NCBI GenBank assembly: GCA_012517995.1
Contig: JAAYTS010000018.1
Coordinates: 1 to 35,400, forward strand
Origin: Clostridium sp.
Lineage (GTDB): Bacteria > Bacillota > Clostridia > Acetivibrionales > Acetivibrionaceae
DNA: 35,400 nucleotides
Direction: 5' to 3'
The position numbers and the translations under genes are program-made. Below the pieces are notes generated by a model, which did not search any database, was not told the origin of the DNA, and was given only the letters and a program-made list of their open reading frames with translations. Every line of letters starts with the position of its first letter. Position 1 is the stretch's first letter. Below are positions 6,707-35,176 of the stretch, in pieces.

Positions 6707-8014
6707 ATGTGGAAAAAAAACACTTTAAATCTACACCATGATATTTTATACATTATTAATGTGCTAAACAGCAATAATTATGAAGCATACTTAGTTGGTG
6801 GATGTGTGAGAGATTTTTTATTGGAAAGAAAACCGACAGATTGGGACATTGCCACCAATGCAAAGCCTTCTGATATAAAAAAACTATTTGAAAAAACAAT
6901 TGATACTGGTTTAAAGCATGGAACATTTACAGTGGTGTTAAATAAAAAAAATTATGAAATAACTACCTATAGAAAAAAACAAAACTTAAAAAGTGATTTG
7001 TCAGTACGGGACTTTACAATTAATGCAATAGCTTATCACCCAAAAGAAGGATTTATAGATCCTTTCTTTGGTGTTGAAGATATAAAAAATTCAATAGTAC
7101 GCTGTGTTGGAAAAGCAAAAGAGCGTTTTTTAGAAGACCCTCTTAGGATGCTAAGAGCCATTCGTTTTTCTTCAACTTTAAAATTTGAAATTGATGAAAA
7201 TATTATAAATGCTATAAAGGAAAACTGCCATCTTATAGACCAGGTAAGTTTTGAACGAATCAGGGATGAGATTTCAAAAATATTGTGCTCTGACAATCCT
7301 TTTAACATGGTAATATTAAAAGATACAGGACTTTTAAAAAATATAATGCCGGAATTTGACATATGTTTTGAAACTTCCCAAAACCATCCTTACCATTTAT
7401 ACAATGTGGCAATTCACTCTCTGCACACCGTGAAAAAAATTGAAAATAAAAAACATTTAAGATGGACTATGCTTCTTCACGACACTGGAAAAGCTGTAAC
7501 TAAAACCACCGATTCTAAAGGAATTGACCACTTTTACAACCACGGTGAACAAAGCGTTTTTATTGCAAAAAAAGTGCTTGAACGGTTTAAATTTGATAAT
7601 AAAACAATATACAAAGTATTAACCCTTATAAAACATCATGACAGGACAATATCACCCACTTATAAATCTGTAAAAAAAGCTATAAATGCTGTGGGAGAAG
7701 ATATTTTTTTAGACCTTTTAAAAGTGCAAGAAGCAGATAGAAGGGGGCAGAATTTAAAGTACTCAAATAAGGGAATTGAAAAATTACAAAAAATTAAAGA
7801 AATTTATTTTGATGTTATTAAAAATAATCACTGCTTTAAATTAGGTGATTTAGCTGTAAATGGTAATGATTTAATTGGGCTAGGTTTTAAAGAAGGAAAA
7901 GAAATAGGCAATATTTTAAATGCTTTATTAGGCATGGTTATTGAAAATCCTCAGTTAAATGAAAAAGAAAAACTTTTAAAAATTGTCCTTGAAAATTTTA
8001 CTCCTTCTTTTTGA
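6707..8014 (+). CDS. cca: CCA tRNA nucleotidyltransferase with HD domain
   Basis: YLVGGCVRDFLLERKPTDWDIATNAKP, RDFTINAIAY, DPLRMLRAIRFS, HD motif LLHDTGKA; SD AAAGGA. Confidence 0.95.
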   Translation: MWKKNTLNLHHDILYIINVLNSNNYEAYLVGGCVRDFLLERKPTDWDIATNAKPSDIKKLFEKTIDTGLKHGTFTVVLNKKNYEITTYRKKQNLKSDLSVRDFTINAIAYHPKEGFIDPFFGVEDIKNSIVRCVGKAKERFLEDPLRMLRAIRFSSTLKFEIDENIINAIKENCHLIDQVSFERIRDEISKILCSDNPFNMVILKDTGLLKNIMPEFDICFETSQNHPYHLYNVAIHSLHTVKKIENKKHLRWTMLLHDTGKAVTKTTDSKGIDHFYNHGEQSVFIAKKVLERFKFDNKTIYKVLTLIKHHDRTISPTYKSVKKAINAVGEDIFLDLLKVQEADRRGQNLKYSNKGIEKLQKIKEIYFDVIKNNHCFKLGDLAVNGNDLIGLGFKEGKEIGNILNALLGMVIENPQLNEKEKLLKIVLENFTPSF

Positions 8015-10640
8015 CCATATCTTCTATATGTTTTCTTGCCTTTGGAGACAGTGAATCCATAAAATAATTACGATCCATACCCTTTTTTTCTTCATACTCT
8101 TCTTGTATTCTTTTATTAGCTTGTATAATCTCAGCCTTAAGCTCCCTTGCTGAAAGCAGGGCACAGCCTTCACCTCTTACAATAATTTGCTGCAGGTTAT
8201 CTGATGTGGCAACTGTTATATCATATTTTTTCTTGTTATCATAGGCAAATTTCTCTATATACTCATCTGCAGTCTGGGCTTCTTTTGTGTATACCACATG
8301 AATGTTGTAATAATCTATTATCTCCTCACGATGCCCTTCAACACGGTATGCATCAAACACCACAATAATTTCACAATTTCGAATCCACTGATAATTACTT
8401 AATAAATCAAGTAATTTTGTTTTTGCAGCATCCATATTTTCATCTGCAAGCTCTTTTAATTCTGACCATGCGTATATAATATTATACCCATCCACCAAGA
8501 GGTACTCATCCTTCTTTTCTTCCTTTTTACTTGCATAATCATGTGGTCTATAATAGCTTTCAATAGCGGATTTTCTTTTTTTCCAGGAAGACTTTTTGCC
8601 CTGATTTGCATAAAAGGTTTTATCAATAATCTTATCAATTTCTTCTAAACTGATTGTTCTTTCTTCTTTAAATACAGGTTTTTCTCTCTCATCTATTTCT
8701 AAATTTATTTCCTTTTTGAGATAACTTTCCACATGCATGTATTCTTTCACTCTATCCCACTCTACAAAAAAACCTGCACCCTGGGCACAAAATATAGAAC
8801 CTGTTGGATTTTCCACATCTCTTTCTGAATCATATCCTATAGATTCTATCACTTCTTCTTGATTATGACATGGCTCATACCCTTTTAAGTTACAAAATAG
8901 CCTACCTAAACCTTTTGAATAAGCCAGCACTTCTTTTTGATAATTTCTCATTGTACTAACAGGAGCACTGCCCACAAGAACTGCCATATCACCATTTGAT
9001 TGGGATATTTCAAAAGTACCATGCATTTTTTCAATATCAGTCATAGCTCTTCCTACTATTTTTTCAGGCAATTCCAAATAAAATTCATAATAAGGTTCTA
9101 ATAATATACTCTCTGCTTCTTTTAATCCTTGGCGTACCGCCCGGTAGGTAGCTTCCCTAAAGTCACCGCCTTCTGTATGTTTATTATGTGCTTTTCCTGA
9201 AACCAAGGCAATTTTCATATCTGTAATTGGCGCCCCTGTTAAAACGCCTTTATGTTCTTTTTCTTTTAAGTGAGTTAAAATAAGCCTCTGCCAGCTTTTA
9301 GACAATATATCTTCGCTGCATTTTGTTTCAAATTTTAAACCACTTCCCCTTTTCCCTGGTTCTAATAGCAGGTGAACTTCTGCATAATGCCTAAGTGGTT
9401 CAAAATGCCCTACACCTTCAACTGTATTTAAAATGGTTTCTTTATAAACAATTTTTCCATCTCCAAATTCTACATCAACATTAAAGCGTTTTTTTATAAG
9501 GCTTTGTAAAATTTCAATCTGCACTTCCCCCATAACCTTTGCTTGAATTTCCTGCAAATTTTCATCCCATACAATATAAAGTTCAGGCTGTTCTTCCTCA
9601 ATCTCATAAAGTTTAGGAAGCATCGCCCTTGGATCACACCCTTTTGGCAGTATAATTTGATAGCGGAGTATAGGTTCTAATACAGGGGAATTTGAAGCCT
9701 CCTCCACCCCCAATCCTTCTCCCGGTCTAGCCTTAGTAAGTCCTGTTACCGCAAATACATCTCCTGCTTCCACTTCATTTACTGCCTCAAATTTTTCTCC
9801 TGAATAAATACGGATTTGATTTACTTTTTCTTCCCATACACCATTTGTTAAAACATCCCTGACTTTAAGTTTCCCACCTGTAAGTTTCATGTGAGTAAGA
9901 CGATTTCCTTGCTCATCTCTGGTTATTTTAAATATTTTAGCTCCAAATTCATCAGGATAATCAGGAAAAATAGAATACTTTACAATACCTTTTATAAATT
10001 GTTCAACACCCTCTAGCTTTAAAGCTGAACCAAAAAAGCAGGGAAACACTTTTCTTTTTACAAAAGCAGTGCTAATATGAGTAGTTTCAACTTTCCCCCC
10101 CTCCAGATAGGCTTCCATAATTTTTTCATCACACATAGACAATTGTTCATAAAATTCCTCTGTGTTATTCTGTCCAAAATCAATACATCCATCATCCAGC
10201 TGCTCTTTTATTTCCTTTATCAATTTATTTTTATCCACACTATCCCTGTCCATTTTATTTATAAATAAAAAAACAGGTATATTATATATCTCAAGAAGTC
10301 TCCATAATGTCTTAGTATGTCCCTGAACCCCATCTGCAGCACTTATTACCAAAATGGCATAGTCCAAAACCTGAAGTGTCCTTTCCATTTCTGCTGAAAA
10401 GTCCACATGCCCCGGGGTGTCCAATAAAATAACCTGCCTTCCGTCTATTTCAAATACAGCCTGTTTAGAAAAAATAGTAATACCTCTAGCTCTTTCTAGT
10501 TCATAGTTATCTAAATAGGCATCTTTATTGTCTACCCTTCCTATTTTTTTTATTTTTCCACTTAAATAAAGCAGGCTTTCTGATAATGTAGTTTTACCTG
10601 CATCCACATGTGCTAATATTCCAATTACAAACTTTTTCAT
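7998..10640 (-). CDS. EF-G/TetM-like translational GTPase fused to a C-terminal YacP/Rae1-like NYN ribonuclease domain
   Basis: G motifs AHVDAGKTTLSE, RGITIFSKQ, DTPGHVDF, NKMD; TetM-like domains III-V; C-terminal YLLVDGYNIIYAW...IVVFDAY...TADEYIEKFA...ITVATSDN (NYN). Confidence 0.92.
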   Translation of the reverse strand: MKKFVIGILAHVDAGKTTLSESLLYLSGKIKKIGRVDNKDAYLDNYELERARGITIFSKQAVFEIDGRQVILLDTPGHVDFSAEMERTLQVLDYAILVISAADGVQGHTKTLWRLLEIYNIPVFLFINKMDRDSVDKNKLIKEIKEQLDDGCIDFGQNNTEEFYEQLSMCDEKIMEAYLEGGKVETTHISTAFVKRKVFPCFFGSALKLEGVEQFIKGIVKYSIFPDYPDEFGAKIFKITRDEQGNRLTHMKLTGGKLKVRDVLTNGVWEEKVNQIRIYSGEKFEAVNEVEAGDVFAVTGLTKARPGEGLGVEEASNSPVLEPILRYQIILPKGCDPRAMLPKLYEIEEEQPELYIVWDENLQEIQAKVMGEVQIEILQSLIKKRFNVDVEFGDGKIVYKETILNTVEGVGHFEPLRHYAEVHLLLEPGKRGSGLKFETKCSEDILSKSWQRLILTHLKEKEHKGVLTGAPITDMKIALVSGKAHNKHTEGGDFREATYRAVRQGLKEAESILLEPYYEFYLELPEKIVGRAMTDIEKMHGTFEISQSNGDMAVLVGSAPVSTMRNYQKEVLAYSKGLGRLFCNLKGYEPCHNQEEVIESIGYDSERDVENPTGSIFCAQGAGFFVEWDRVKEYMHVESYLKKEINLEIDEREKPVFKEERTISLEEIDKIIDKTFYANQGKKSSWKKRKSAIESYYRPHDYASKKEEKKDEYLLVDGYNIIYAWSELKELADENMDAAKTKLLDLLSNYQWIRNCEIIVVFDAYRVEGHREEIIDYYNIHVVYTKEAQTADEYIEKFAYDNKKKYDITVATSDNLQQIIVRGEGCALLSARELKAEIIQANKRIQEEYEEKKGMDRNYFMDSLSPKARKHIEDMVKKKE

Positions 10641-10790: not shown

Positions 10791-10839
10791 AAAAAAATCT
10801 GTGTATTACAGCTTATTTAACTGCTATACACAGATTTTT
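10791..10839 (-). terminator. Intrinsic terminator downstream of tRNA-Leu
   Basis: AAAAAATCTGTGTAT ... ATACACAGATTTTTT inverted repeat directly 3' of the tRNA on the minus strand. Confidence 0.85.
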
Positions 10840-16934: not shown

Positions 16935-17193
16935 AAAAACCTTCCTTCCCATATGGGACGAAGGTCATCTCGCGGTACCACCCAACTTTTTATACATGAA
17001 AAATGTATAAACACTCAATGCAAATAACGGTTTGCCCCCGGTATCTCCTACTTATATCAATGTTCAGGATACAGCTCCAGAGTGAACTTCAACAGCCAGC
17101 CTTTTAAAAATACTTTCAGCCTATGGTATTTTTTCTCTTTAAATAGCCAAAAGCTGTCTACTCTCTCTATCATTGCTTTTACATTAATAGTTT
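16935..17193 (-). promoter_or_regulatory. T-box leader (Phe) of pheST with terminator/antiterminator
   Basis: Minus strand has T-box GGGTGGTACCGCG (16971-16983), terminator CCTTCGTCCCATATGGGAAGGAAGGTTTTTT (16935-16964), AGTA-box-like AGTAGGAGATACC, and a plausible TTC specifier in GAAGTTCACTCT. Confidence 0.93.
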
Positions 17194-30323: not shown

Positions 30324-30767
30324 TTCACACCTCCTTGTGCAATGGTTTTGAAAACAAAACCAATACTATTCCTCATCTAAATTGTTTGTATAACTTTAGA
30401 ATGTAAGAATAATAGACCTTTCTTCAATTTTTGTTTAGGATAATAGTTGACTTTTAAAATTTAGTAAGATTTACGTTATAGAAAGAATATTAATTAATCA
30501 TTCATCCACCTTGTTAATTTTTTGACTATCTTATTATATATATTCTACATTAACACTAAATTTCCTTCTTTATTTTTTTAAAAAATACATAAACTTTCAT
30601 CTAAAATCAGGTTCCTCTAGTAAATATCAAAGTTTTTTTAATGTCTCAAATATATAAATTGTTTTTTACTTTTACATGTTCTATTAAGTAATAAACTTTA
30701 CTAATAAGGAAATATTATATAGGACTGCAATTTTAATGCTCAAAATTTTAAAAGGATGGTGAACATT

Positions 30768-31283
30768 TTGACAAAACCCCAGTCTATTAGCATAACTAAG
30801 CCTGTAAGTAAAGATTTACCTGAAGAAAAATTTAATGAACTTGAAGCATTTATTGATGGATTAAAAACCACCAAAGGAGCATTAGTTGAAATACTTCACA
30901 AAGCTCAACAAATATTTGGATACCTTCCAAGGGATGTACAGCTTTATGTGGCAAGAAAACTAGGAATTCCAGGAGCAGAAGTTTTTGGTGTGGTAAGCTT
31001 CTACTCATACTTTACTACAAAACCAGGGGGAAAACACACCATAAGTGTTTGTATGGGAACCGCCTGTTTTGTAAGAGGTGCTGATAAAATTCTTGAAAGG
31101 CTAAAAGAAAAATTAGGTATTAAGTCCAATGAAGTTACAGAAGATGGACTGTTTGCCTTAAAAGATATCCGATGTGTTGGGGCATGTGGACTAGCCCCTG
31201 TTGTTATGGTAGATGACAAAGTATATGGACGTGTAAAAGAAGAGGATTTAGACGATATTATAAACCATTACAGAAATAATTAA
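30768..31283 (+). CDS. hydC: NADH-linked [FeFe]-hydrogenase NuoE-like subunit (start revised to TTG)
   Basis: LVEILHKAQQIFGYLPRDVQLYVARKLGIPGAEVFGVVSFYSYF, CMGTACFVRGADKIL, CVGACGLAPVVMV; TTG at 30768 follows the AAAGGATGG SD. Confidence 0.9.
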   Translation: MTKPQSISITKPVSKDLPEEKFNELEAFIDGLKTTKGALVEILHKAQQIFGYLPRDVQLYVARKLGIPGAEVFGVVSFYSYFTTKPGGKHTISVCMGTACFVRGADKILERLKEKLGIKSNEVTEDGLFALKDIRCVGACGLAPVVMVDDKVYGRVKEEDLDDIINHYRNN

Positions 31284-31309
31284 GTTTCAAAAAGCCAGGG
31301 AGGTGTGGT

Positions 31310-31702
31310 ATGAAAATAAAATCATTGGAGGAACTGCAAAAAATACGTGAAGAACATGAAAATAAAATACGTCTAAGAAATACCGGAGATGATAAAGAGG
31401 ATAAAATTGAAATACGTATAGGGATGGCAACCTGTGGTATTTCCTCTGGTGCAAGAGAAACCCTTAACGCATTTATAAAGGAAATGTCATTAAATAAAAT
31501 TGAAAATGTAAAAATTATAGCTGTTGGATGCATTGGATACTGCCACTCAGAACCTATTGTACAGGTAAATGTACCCGGACACGCTCCTGTAATATATGGG
31601 AATATAAAAAAAGATAAAGTACCCCTAATAGTAAATAATCACATAAAGCAGGGAAAGCCTGTGGAAAGTTTAGTACTTAAAGTAGATTTTGAAAGGATAT
31701 AA
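31310..31702 (+). CDS. Thioredoxin-like (2Fe-2S) ferredoxin-domain protein of the hydrogenase operon
   Basis: GMATCGISSGARETL ... IIAVGCIGYCHSEPIVQV. Confidence 0.88.
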   Translation: MKIKSLEELQKIREEHENKIRLRNTGDDKEDKIEIRIGMATCGISSGARETLNAFIKEMSLNKIENVKIIAVGCIGYCHSEPIVQVNVPGHAPVIYGNIKKDKVPLIVNNHIKQGKPVESLVLKVDFERI

Positions 31703-31744
31703 TCAACACAAAATAAGAATTATCAATAAAAAAGGAGGCTAAAA

Positions 31745-33391
31745 ATGGCAATAACTCGCACAAATATTCTTGTCTGTGGTGGTACAGGCTGCTTAGCCAG
31801 TGAAGCCGAAAAGGTACAAAGAAACCTTGAACTTATATTAAAAGCAAGAGGTTATGAAAAAGAGGCAAAAATTATTAAAACCGGCTGCTTTGGCTTTTGT
31901 GAACAGGGACCAATAGTGAAAATAGAACCTGAAAATGTGTTTTATGTTCGTGTTGGTCCAAAAGATGCCAAAGATATTATAGATGAGCATATTATTAAAG
32001 GCAGAAAGGTTGAAAGACTTTTATATAAAGAGCCTTATGAAAAGGAGAAAATTGATACACAGGAAAATATGCCCTTTTATAAAAAACAGTTGCGTATAGC
32101 ATTGAGAAACTGTGGACTTATAGATCCAGAGGACATCTACGAATACATAGCTTTAGGAGGGTATGAAGCATTAGGTAAAGCTATAACAAAGATGTCTAGA
32201 GATGAAGTTATAGAAACAGTTAAAAAATCAAAACTTCGTGGTCGCGGTGGCGGGGGCTTTCCTACAGGCATCAAATGGGAAATTGCCAAAAAACAAAAAA
32301 GTGATGTGAAATTTATTGTATGCAATGGGGATGAAGGTGACCCAGGAGCCTTTATGGACAGAAGTATTCTAGAAGGTGACCCTCACAGTGTAATAGAAGC
32401 AATGGCAATAGGAGGCTATGCAATTGGTGCAGATAAAGGCATTATTTATATCCGTGCCGAGTACCCTCTTGCTATAAAACGCCTTAAAACAGCATTAGAA
32501 CAGGCAAGGGAGCTTGGGCTTCTGGGAAAAAATATTTTTGAAACAGATTTTAGTTTTGATATTGATATAAAATATGGAGCCGGCGCCTTTGTATGTGGTG
32601 AAGAAACTGCCCTTATAAATTCATGTGAAGGCAAAAGAGGAGAACCAAATTACAAGCCGCCATACCCTGCAGAAGAGGGATATTGGGGATATCCTACCTG
32701 TGTAAATAATGTCGAAACCTTCTCAAACATTCCACCAATTATAACAAAAGGGGCTGATTGGTTCCTTTCCATTGGCACTGAAAATAGTAAGGGAACAAAG
32801 GTTTTTGCACTGGCAGGAAAGATTAACAATGTGGGACTTGTGGAAGTTCCCATGGGAATCACTTTAAGAGAAATTATTTATGATATTGGCGGAGGAATAC
32901 AAGGAGGAAAAAAATTTAAAGCTGTTCAAACAGGTGGCCCTTCTGGAGGTGTTATTACAGAAAATGAATTGGACACCCCCATTGACTATGACAGCCTGCT
33001 AGGTATCGGCTCAATGATGGGGTCAGGTGGAATGATTGTCATGGACGAAACAGATAATATGGTAGACATTGCAAAGTTTTATCTGGAGTTTACCATGGAT
33101 GAGTCATGCGGCAGATGTACGCCTTGCCGAATAGGAACAAAACGCCTTTATGAAATGTTAAATAAAATAACCAGTGGAAAAGCCACCATGGCTGACCTTG
33201 ATGCTATGAAACAGTTGGCATATATGATTAAGGATAGTTCCCTTTGTGGTCTTGGACAAACAGCACCAAACCCTGTTATAAGCACCATGAAGTACTTTTG
33301 GGATGAATATTTGGCTTTAATTAAGGATGTAGACAACCCACAGGGTGAAGGAAAGTTTGAGGTAAAAAATAAAATAGGAATTGAGTCTTAA
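31745..33391 (+). CDS. hydB: NADH-linked [FeFe]-hydrogenase NuoF-like subunit
   Basis: KLRGRGGGGFPTGIKWE, CNGDEGDPGAFMDRS, GAGAFVCGEETALINSCEGKRGEP, ESCGRCTPCRIG; N-terminal 2Fe-2S domain GTGCLAS...GCFGFCEQGP. Confidence 0.95.
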   Translation: MAITRTNILVCGGTGCLASEAEKVQRNLELILKARGYEKEAKIIKTGCFGFCEQGPIVKIEPENVFYVRVGPKDAKDIIDEHIIKGRKVERLLYKEPYEKEKIDTQENMPFYKKQLRIALRNCGLIDPEDIYEYIALGGYEALGKAITKMSRDEVIETVKKSKLRGRGGGGFPTGIKWEIAKKQKSDVKFIVCNGDEGDPGAFMDRSILEGDPHSVIEAMAIGGYAIGADKGIIYIRAEYPLAIKRLKTALEQARELGLLGKNIFETDFSFDIDIKYGAGAFVCGEETALINSCEGKRGEPNYKPPYPAEEGYWGYPTCVNNVETFSNIPPIITKGADWFLSIGTENSKGTKVFALAGKINNVGLVEVPMGITLREIIYDIGGGIQGGKKFKAVQTGGPSGGVITENELDTPIDYDSLLGIGSMMGSGGMIVMDETDNMVDIAKFYLEFTMDESCGRCTPCRIGTKRLYEMLNKITSGKATMADLDAMKQLAYMIKDSSLCGLGQTAPNPVISTMKYFWDEYLALIKDVDNPQGEGKFEVKNKIGIES

Positions 33392-33409
33392 AACCAAAGA
33401 GGTGAAATA

Positions 33410-35176
33410 ATGGCTGAAAATAAAAAAATGTTAAATGTCACAATAAATGATTATGAGTTACAATTTCCTGAAGGCATCACTATATTAGAGGCAGCCGGCC
33501 AGGTTGGAGTAAAAATACCCACCTTATGCCATCTGGATTTACATGATATAAAAATGGTAAATCAAACAGCCTCCTGTCGGGTATGTATGGTTGAACTTGT
33601 AGATTCAACAAACAACAGAAATAAGCTGGTGCCCTCATGTGTAACAAAAATAACTGAGGGAATGGTAATACGTACTGATACATTAAAAGCTATAACCGCA
33701 AGAAGAATGGCTGTAGAACTTTTATTGTCCAATCATCCCAATGAATGCTTTACATGCCCTAAAAATACAAATTGTGAGTTACAGTCCTTAGCGGCAGAAC
33801 TAGGTGTAAGAAAAATCCGTTGGGAAGGGGAACGGATGAATTACCCAAAAGATTTGTCCAGTGATGCCATAGTAAAAGATTCCAATAAATGTATCTATTG
33901 TAGACGTTGTGAAACCATGTGCAATGAAGTTCAAACCTGTGGAATACTGTCAGGCATAGGCAGAGGTTTTAATTCTTTTGTAGGTCCTGCATTTAACATT
34001 CCCATGGTTGAATCCTCCTGTACTTACTGTGGACAATGTGTTCAGGTTTGTCCTACAGCAGCCCTTACAGAAGTAAATCATATTGACAAGGTGTGGGAAG
34101 CTTTAAATGACCCTGACAAACATGTAATTGTTCAAACTGCCCCTGCAATACGGGTTACTTTAGGTGAGTTATTTGGCATGGAGCCTGGTACTATTGTAAC
34201 AGGTAAAATGGTAACAGCCCTTAAAAGACTGGGATTTGATGCAGTTTTTGATACTGATTTTGGGGCTGATCTCACTATTATGGAGGAAGCTTCTGAACTT
34301 ATTTACCGTATACAAAATAACAAAACCCTTCCAATGCTCACCAGTTGCTGTCCTGCATGGGTTAAATTTATAGAACATCAATTCCCTGAACTATTAAAAG
34401 TTCCTTCCACTTGTAAATCGCCTCATATAATGTTTGGCACCATAGTAAAAACATATTATGCAGAAAAAAATAAAATTGACCCTGATAACTTTGTAGTTGT
34501 ATCAGTAATGCCCTGTATAGCAAAAAAAGCTGAAGCCAAACGCCCTGAGCTTACTAAGGACAAGCACAACAATGTTGACATAGTGGTAACAACAAGGGAA
34601 CTTGGTTTAATGATAATGGAAGCAGGCATTAAGTTTGAAGATTTGCCTGAAAGCCAATTTGATAAACCTTTAGGGGAAACTACAGGTGCTTCTGTAATAT
34701 TTGGAACTACTGGAGGAGTAGTTGAAGCAGCCATCCGTACAGCCCACAAGTGGCTGACAGGGAAAGAACTTGAAAATGTTGAATTTCATCAGTTAAGGGG
34801 CAGTGATGGTCTTAGAAAAGCTACTGTACAAGTAGGGGATAGAGAACTTAGGATAGGAATTGCAAGTGGACTTGGAAATGCCCGTACCCTTTTAGAGGAA
34901 ATACGAGAAGAGAAAAGCCAATATGATGTAATTGAGATTATGGCTTGCCCTGGAGGCTGTATTGCAGGAGGTGGTCAACCATACCATCACGGAAATTATG
35001 AAATAGTTAAAAAAAGACAAGAAGCAATATACAGAGAAGACCGGAATAAAAGGTACAGAAAATCCCATGAAAATGCTGAAATACTTAAACTCTATGAAGA
35101 ATACTTAGGTAAGCCCTTTGGAGAACTTGCCCACAAACTCCTTCATACCCATTATGAAGAAAGAGAAAGAATATAA
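33410..35176 (+). CDS. hydA: [FeFe]-hydrogenase catalytic subunit
   Basis: H-cluster motifs TSCCPAW, MPCIAKK, MACPGGCIAGGGQPY; N-terminal 2Fe-2S, HPNECFTCPKNTNC, two 4Fe-4S motifs. Confidence 0.97.
   Translation: MAENKKMLNVTINDYELQFPEGITILEAAGQVGVKIPTLCHLDLHDIKMVNQTASCRVCMVELVDSTNNRNKLVPSCVTKITEGMVIRTDTLKAITARRMAVELLLSNHPNECFTCPKNTNCELQSLAAELGVRKIRWEGERMNYPKDLSSDAIVKDSNKCIYCRRCETMCNEVQTCGILSGIGRGFNSFVGPAFNIPMVESSCTYCGQCVQVCPTAALTEVNHIDKVWEALNDPDKHVIVQTAPAIRVTLGELFGMEPGTIVTGKMVTALKRLGFDAVFDTDFGADLTIMEEASELIYRIQNNKTLPMLTSCCPAWVKFIEHQFPELLKVPSTCKSPHIMFGTIVKTYYAEKNKIDPDNFVVVSVMPCIAKKAEAKRPELTKDKHNNVDIVVTTRELGLMIMEAGIKFEDLPESQFDKPLGETTGASVIFGTTGGVVEAAIRTAHKWLTGKELENVEFHQLRGSDGLRKATVQVGDRELRIGIASGLGNARTLLEEIREEKSQYDVIEIMACPGGCIAGGGQPYHHGNYEIVKKRQEAIYREDRNKRYRKSHENAEILKLYEEYLGKPFGELAHKLLHTHYEERERI

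Follow-up and report, generated by a model that had tools for sequence, protein, structure and literature searches.

A clostridial TetM-like translational GTPase fused to a Rae1/YacP-type nuclease domain in genomes that have mostly lost stand-alone yacP

The coupling between stalled ribosomes and the cleavage of mRNA is poorly understood in bacteria. In B. subtilis, Rae1 (YacP) functions in ribosome-dependent mRNA decay, with action at the A site proposed, and an efp deletion is suppressed when Rae1 is lost (PMC6613710, PMC10100781). Among the ribosome-type GTPases, TetM is characterized by a Pro509 that overlaps bound tetracycline (PMC7456112, PMC8161019). A fusion of these two protein types was reported in one sentence by Atkinson 2015 (PMC4342817), in ten Clostridiales, where the proteins were treated as Tet proteins and an RNase-based resistance was suggested.

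Here we analyzed a fusion of this kind in a stretch of 35,400 nucleotides from Clostridium sp. (hereafter the window). The gene is a single ORF of 880 amino acids with an ATG start and no internal stops, and its Pfam domains (Table 1) bear out the initial annotation of one reading frame that carries an EF-G/TetM-type GTPase followed by a complete NYN domain, as well as the motifs and the NYN position given there. The G domain has an intact P-loop, Thr55, DTPGH(78) and NKMD, and the NYN_YacP match covers positions 1 to 165 of the 166 in the model, at 179.7 bits against a cut-off of 24.6. Domain V is followed by a conserved extension (GSIFCAQGAGF...) and then by a linker which, across 109 homologous fusions, ranges from 56 to 134 amino acids and is poorly conserved. 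Domain IV, which in EF-G and TetM reaches the decoding centre, shows the highest conservation of all domains in the fusion family (mean majority residue 0.80). The AlphaFold model of the fusion reached a pTM of 0.59 and was thus not used to read domain docking; Foldseek with the full-length protein returned only EF-G-like structures among the matches listed, which say nothing on the placement of the NYN domain.

Table 1. Positions of the fusion gene and its domains in the window
Feature	Residues	Position	Strand	Evidence or remark
Fusion gene: translational GTPase, C-terminal extension, linker and NYN_YacP (Rae1)		7998..10640	-	ORF, Pfam, 109 homologous fusions
G domain, GTP_EFTU	5-222	9975..10628	-	Pfam 5e-53
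Domain II, EF-G_D2	233-304	9729..9944	-	Pfam
Domain III, EFG_III	323-393	9462..9674	-	Pfam 24.5 bits, just below the curated cut-off of 27 bits
Domain IV, EFG_IV	395-509	9114..9458	-	Pfam 7e-19
Domain IV tip loop, GKAHNKHTEGGDF	482-494	9159..9197	-	K487 at the TetM Pro509 position
Domain V, EFG_C	513-594	8859..9104	-	Pfam 2e-17
Structured C-terminal extension, GYDSERD-ENPTGSIFCAQGAGFFVEWDRV	595-643	8712..8858	-	Conserved; also in unfused relatives
Linker, flexible, unconserved	644-710	8511..8711	-	pLDDT mostly <50
NYN_YacP/Rae1 nuclease domain	714-876	8013..8501	-	Pfam 6e-53; D717, D763, D792, D814

The closest solved structures for the fused NYN domain are those of B. subtilis YacP (5MQ8/5MQ9; 3e-23). 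Its four aspartates (D717, D763, D792 and D814) correspond to D7, D53, D81 and D104 of Rae1 and, together with N720, are invariant in all 109 fusions; the catalytic aspartates have therefore not been lost, and the description of the protein as a ribosome-type GTPase that bears an entire Rae1-type nuclease is supported. The fusion retains 24 of the 30 columns conserved among stand-alone Rae1 proteins. At the column of Rae1 R118 (approx. residue 828 of the window's protein), Arg is found in 34/34 stand-alone Rae1 proteins, while 28 of 40 fusions have Leu or Val, a change that would fit an altered ribosome contact.

The fusion is widespread in Clostridia. It is present in all sampled genomes of the window's family (one copy being cut by a contig end), and a phylum-wide sample of 300 genomes yielded it in 18. 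A further 80 named Clostridia loci carry it, most of them from Lachnospiraceae and Oscillospiraceae; Anaerovorax, Fusibacter, Butyrivibrio and Holdemania are represented. Dozens of additional genomes, one-contig assemblies among them, have it as well. As the same architecture recurs in all these loci, a frameshift or an assembly artefact joining two genes can be excluded. Moreover, nearly all of the 109 fusions retain intact GTPase motifs, and dN/dS ranges, where computable, from approx. 0.06 to 0.18 in both halves; the GTPase half and the NYN half are thus both under purifying selection.

The best solved relatives of residues 2 to 591 are TetO and TetM, which at 31% identity are also the closest characterized proteins. 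The initial annotation had cautioned that a tetracycline-resistance label would hide the fusion, a caution that proved apt: the best NCBIfam match is tet_protect, but at 441.4 bits against a cut-off of 775, and the matches to tet_protect_M_W (312.7 bits; cut-off 1100) and to the EF-G model TIGR00484 (298.9 bits; cut-off 659.4) also fall below threshold. In the domain IV tip loop, which reads AHNKHTEGGDF, the position of TetM Pro509 is occupied by Lys in 103 of the 109 fusions and by Pro in none, as compared to Pro in 7/7 protection proteins (TetM, TetO, TetS, TetW, two OtrA and a Tet36-like protein). Absence of this proline would not prove that drug protection is lost, yet it takes away the feature that would underlie the label. 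In the GTPase tree, the fused and unfused proteins form one clade (support 99) beside the clade of ribosome-protection proteins (RPPs; 99-100), with EF-G outside. The sequences thus place the fusion GTPase in a sister clade of, and outside, the sampled RPPs, with the exact branching provisional because the tree contains long branches and does not include Tet(Q). The suggestion of ribosome protection against drugs was not supported, given this placement and the Lys in the KHTEGGDF loop. The window's genome also encodes two separate EF-Gs.

A few unfused GTPase relatives group with the fused proteins in this clade: those of G190, G214, G296 and G311, each found together with an unlinked stand-alone Rae1, and one on a Ligilactobacillus salivarius megaplasmid. 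In the phylum sample, all three unfused relatives accompany a stand-alone NYN_YacP, and in the order sample the GTPase extension is carried by 25/25 fusion genomes as well as by G311 and G320, in which a stand-alone gene is paired with an unfused GTPase. The Ligilactobacillus salivarius copy (plasmid p1; L108, 4986-6920) is annotated as a member of the TetM/TetW/TetO/TetS family, carries HTVGGDF instead of the SPVSTPADF loop and adjoins an extra rpsN; its tetracycline-resistance label is likely wrong. The NYN domains of the fusions group in a single clade (97), which points to one fusion event. The fusion copies of G001, G324 and Herbinix group together (100) against species relations, indicating that the fusion gene also moves horizontally.

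In the window's genome, which is 98% complete, the sole NYN_YacP is the fused one. Among the 38 genomes of the order sample, 24 have the fusion only, 12 the stand-alone gene only, one has both (G004) and one has neither; 24 of the 25 fusion genomes of the order thus do without stand-alone yacP, so that the initial annotation's question as to whether a separate gene persists was answered in favor of the fusion taking over. A second NYN_YacP was likewise absent from 18/18 fusion genomes of the phylum sample. The raw association between fusion and stand-alone yacP was strong when kinship is ignored (P = 1.6e-7; Fisher's exact test). On the rpoC tree the fusion state switches approx. seven times. 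Supported branches provide five independent pairs, of which four changed in opposite directions and none in the same direction (P = 0.125), only four pairs being informative, which is too few for significance.

The yacP gene lies directly after rlmB in 7 of the 8 stand-alone loci first examined and precedes sigH in the six stand-alone loci in which both neighbours were detected, where the gap between rlmB and sigH is 575 to 783 nt. Where the fusion is present, rlmB and sigH remain adjacent, with gaps of 16 to 351 nt outside the window's family and 296 to 601 nt within it, and no intact yacP was found between them except in G004; the slot in the window's genome likewise holds no yacP, its NYN domain residing in the fusion instead. 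Broken yacP remnants were found in this slot in nine fusion genomes (G001, G003, G006, G007, G009, G323, G324, G325 and G332). A first profile scan gave weak scores in several genomes, and remnants were counted only if confirmed by tblastn with the yacP of G004; the matches, all in fusion carriers, range from faint (1e-5) to a freshly split gene (1e-46; G324). The latter pseudogene lies at 1827-2319 of locus L260, in a genome whose own fusion copy seems to have been acquired horizontally (see its grouping with G001 and Herbinix above). Weak NYN-like proteins of 163 to 165 amino acids in G312, G317 and G318 were rejected as yacP, as they lie away from the yacP slot and miss the VDGYN aspartate; in two of these genomes, both fusion-bearing (G317, L263 2016-2159; G312, L264 1951-2094), the match is weak and the protein, encoded away from rlmB, has LECYN in place of VDGYN and is apparently inactive. 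Remnants at an otherwise empty slot are the expected trace of a redundant gene that has been displaced again and again, and together with the empty slot they give the strongest support to the view that the NYN domain of the fusion does the work of Rae1. The co-loss of yacP in itself speaks for redundancy or incompatibility and not for a mechanism.

The genomic surroundings did not single out a pathway. No conserved gene neighbourhood was found, the window's genus sharing only secA/cca surroundings, and no conserved mobile or resistance neighbours were present within 7 kb in the 109 loci, so that a mobile resistance gene was rejected despite some horizontal transfer in the gene trees; with no PADLOC matches, a defence system was rejected as well. 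A cca-type tRNA nucleotidyltransferase gene (6707-8014, +) converges on the fusion gene and overlaps its 3' end by 17 nt. Searches for a tet(M)-like leader attenuator gave no Rfam match, and the only strong hairpin, which is followed by a T run (10795..10837, -), lies just after a tRNA-Leu gene. It is likely the terminator of that tRNA gene, so that transcription of the fusion gene probably starts from a separate promoter downstream of it. Elsewhere in the window, a T-box leader (16951-17182, -; 128.5 bits) lies just upstream of pheS-pheT, as in ordinary tRNA-Phe-responsive control, and a four-gene cluster (30756-35176, +) encodes NADH-linked electron-transfer subunits and an [FeFe] hydrogenase, which is typical of fermentative Clostridia.

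Overall, we consider it probable, though well short of certain, that the fusion is a chromosomal housekeeping factor, i.e., a GTPase which carries the cell's only Rae1 on a flexible tether and serves mRNA decay or quality control rather than drug resistance. That the fusion cleaves RNA, binds ribosomes and acts at the A site is inferred. The GTPase would dock on ribosomes whose A site is open or stalled, where the conserved KHTEGGDF tip of domain IV would probe the decoding centre; upon GTP hydrolysis domain IV would withdraw and the tethered NYN domain could cut the mRNA there, as proposed for the lone Rae1 of B. subtilis. In TetM-type proteins domain IV itself occupies the 30S A site; the NYN domain should therefore not share this site with it and would enter only after domain IV withdraws, or else act elsewhere; cleavage at a place other than the A site is thus the alternative. 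If extended, the linker of 67 amino acids could span >200 Å. Points that weigh against the housekeeping reading are the expected clash of domain IV and the NYN domain in a single A site, the presence of both genes in G004, the small number of informative pairs, the Leu or Val at the R118 column in 28 of 40 fusions and the lack of a conserved gene neighbourhood. We offer more tentatively, and would sooner expect to see revised, the fuller proposal of a one-polypeptide no-go-decay factor in which the tip would sense an open A site and GTP hydrolysis would time entry and cutting by the tethered Rae1, and which would have supplanted the free enzyme in a large part of Clostridia, to some extent through horizontal transfer.

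It is tempting to retain the published proposal that the protein protects ribosomes from antibiotics and that the RNase domain provides a new resistance mechanism, as TetO and TetM are the closest characterized proteins, the clade of the GTPase is the sister of the RPP clade and a relative is so annotated by pipelines. We regard this as unlikely, given the Lys for Pro509 in 103/109 fusions, a different loop I, the wide margin by which all RPP models are missed, the lack of a recognized drug-inducible leader and of a conserved mobile context, and a distribution that tracks the loss of yacP. We see about as little probability in a union of independent halves, in which the GTPase would have a ribosome job of its own (rescue, back-translocation or similar) and the NYN domain would be carried for co-expression. 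The four genomes with an unfused GTPase and an unlinked Rae1, and the long, unconserved linker, are what such independence would predict; the very wide persistence of one fusion in Clostridia and the repeated loss of free Rae1 suggest instead that tethering is tolerated or useful.

Two further readings appear far less probable. A factor that shuts off translation under stress or phage attack by cutting mRNA or rRNA would match a common defence design, i.e., a nuclease combined with ribosome targeting, and horizontal movement such as that of the G001, G324 and Herbinix copies; we think it very improbable for a gene which has no PADLOC match or recurrent neighbours, occurs in all genomes sampled from the window's family and replaces a conserved housekeeping gene. 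It is just as hard to credit a role of the NYN domain in rRNA or tRNA maturation, as was predicted for NYN domains before the work on Rae1 (cited in PMC4342817), since YacP was later found to function in ribosome-dependent mRNA decay (PMC6613710, PMC10100781).

The presence of Rae1 on a ribosome-type GTPase, in lineages where the free enzyme has repeatedly become dispensable, suggests a route by which the nuclease may be targeted. For the surveillance of resistance genes, it matters that a family of gut Clostridia proteins labelled as tetracycline resistance is probably a housekeeping translation factor.

The clostridial "Tet"-NYN proteins of PMC4342817 have the same architecture and very probably represent the same family; they were counted there, in ten species, inside the Tet subfamily, whereas the GTPase falls here outside the sampled RPPs. 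The present analysis adds the separate clade, the absence of Pro509, a sister family without the fusion, the apparent single origin and the displacement of yacP, for which no earlier report was found in the literature searched. With TetM, TetO, TetS, TetW and Otr(A) the fusions share domains G to V and the GTPase motifs, as befits a sister clade, but differ by an identity of only approx. 30%, by the Lys for Pro509 and by loop I, and they carry the conserved extension and the NYN domain that these proteins do not have. EF-G, which like TetM is without the extension, shows the same domain order and a tip His with which a His in the fusion's tip loop aligns, at 25-30% identity. Compared to B. subtilis Rae1, the NYN domain is homologous and keeps all four aspartates; B. 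subtilis Rae1 is free-standing, encoded after rlmB, and needs no GTPase partner in cis, which counts against our preferred explanation, while the fused NYN domain forms the C-terminus of a GTPase.
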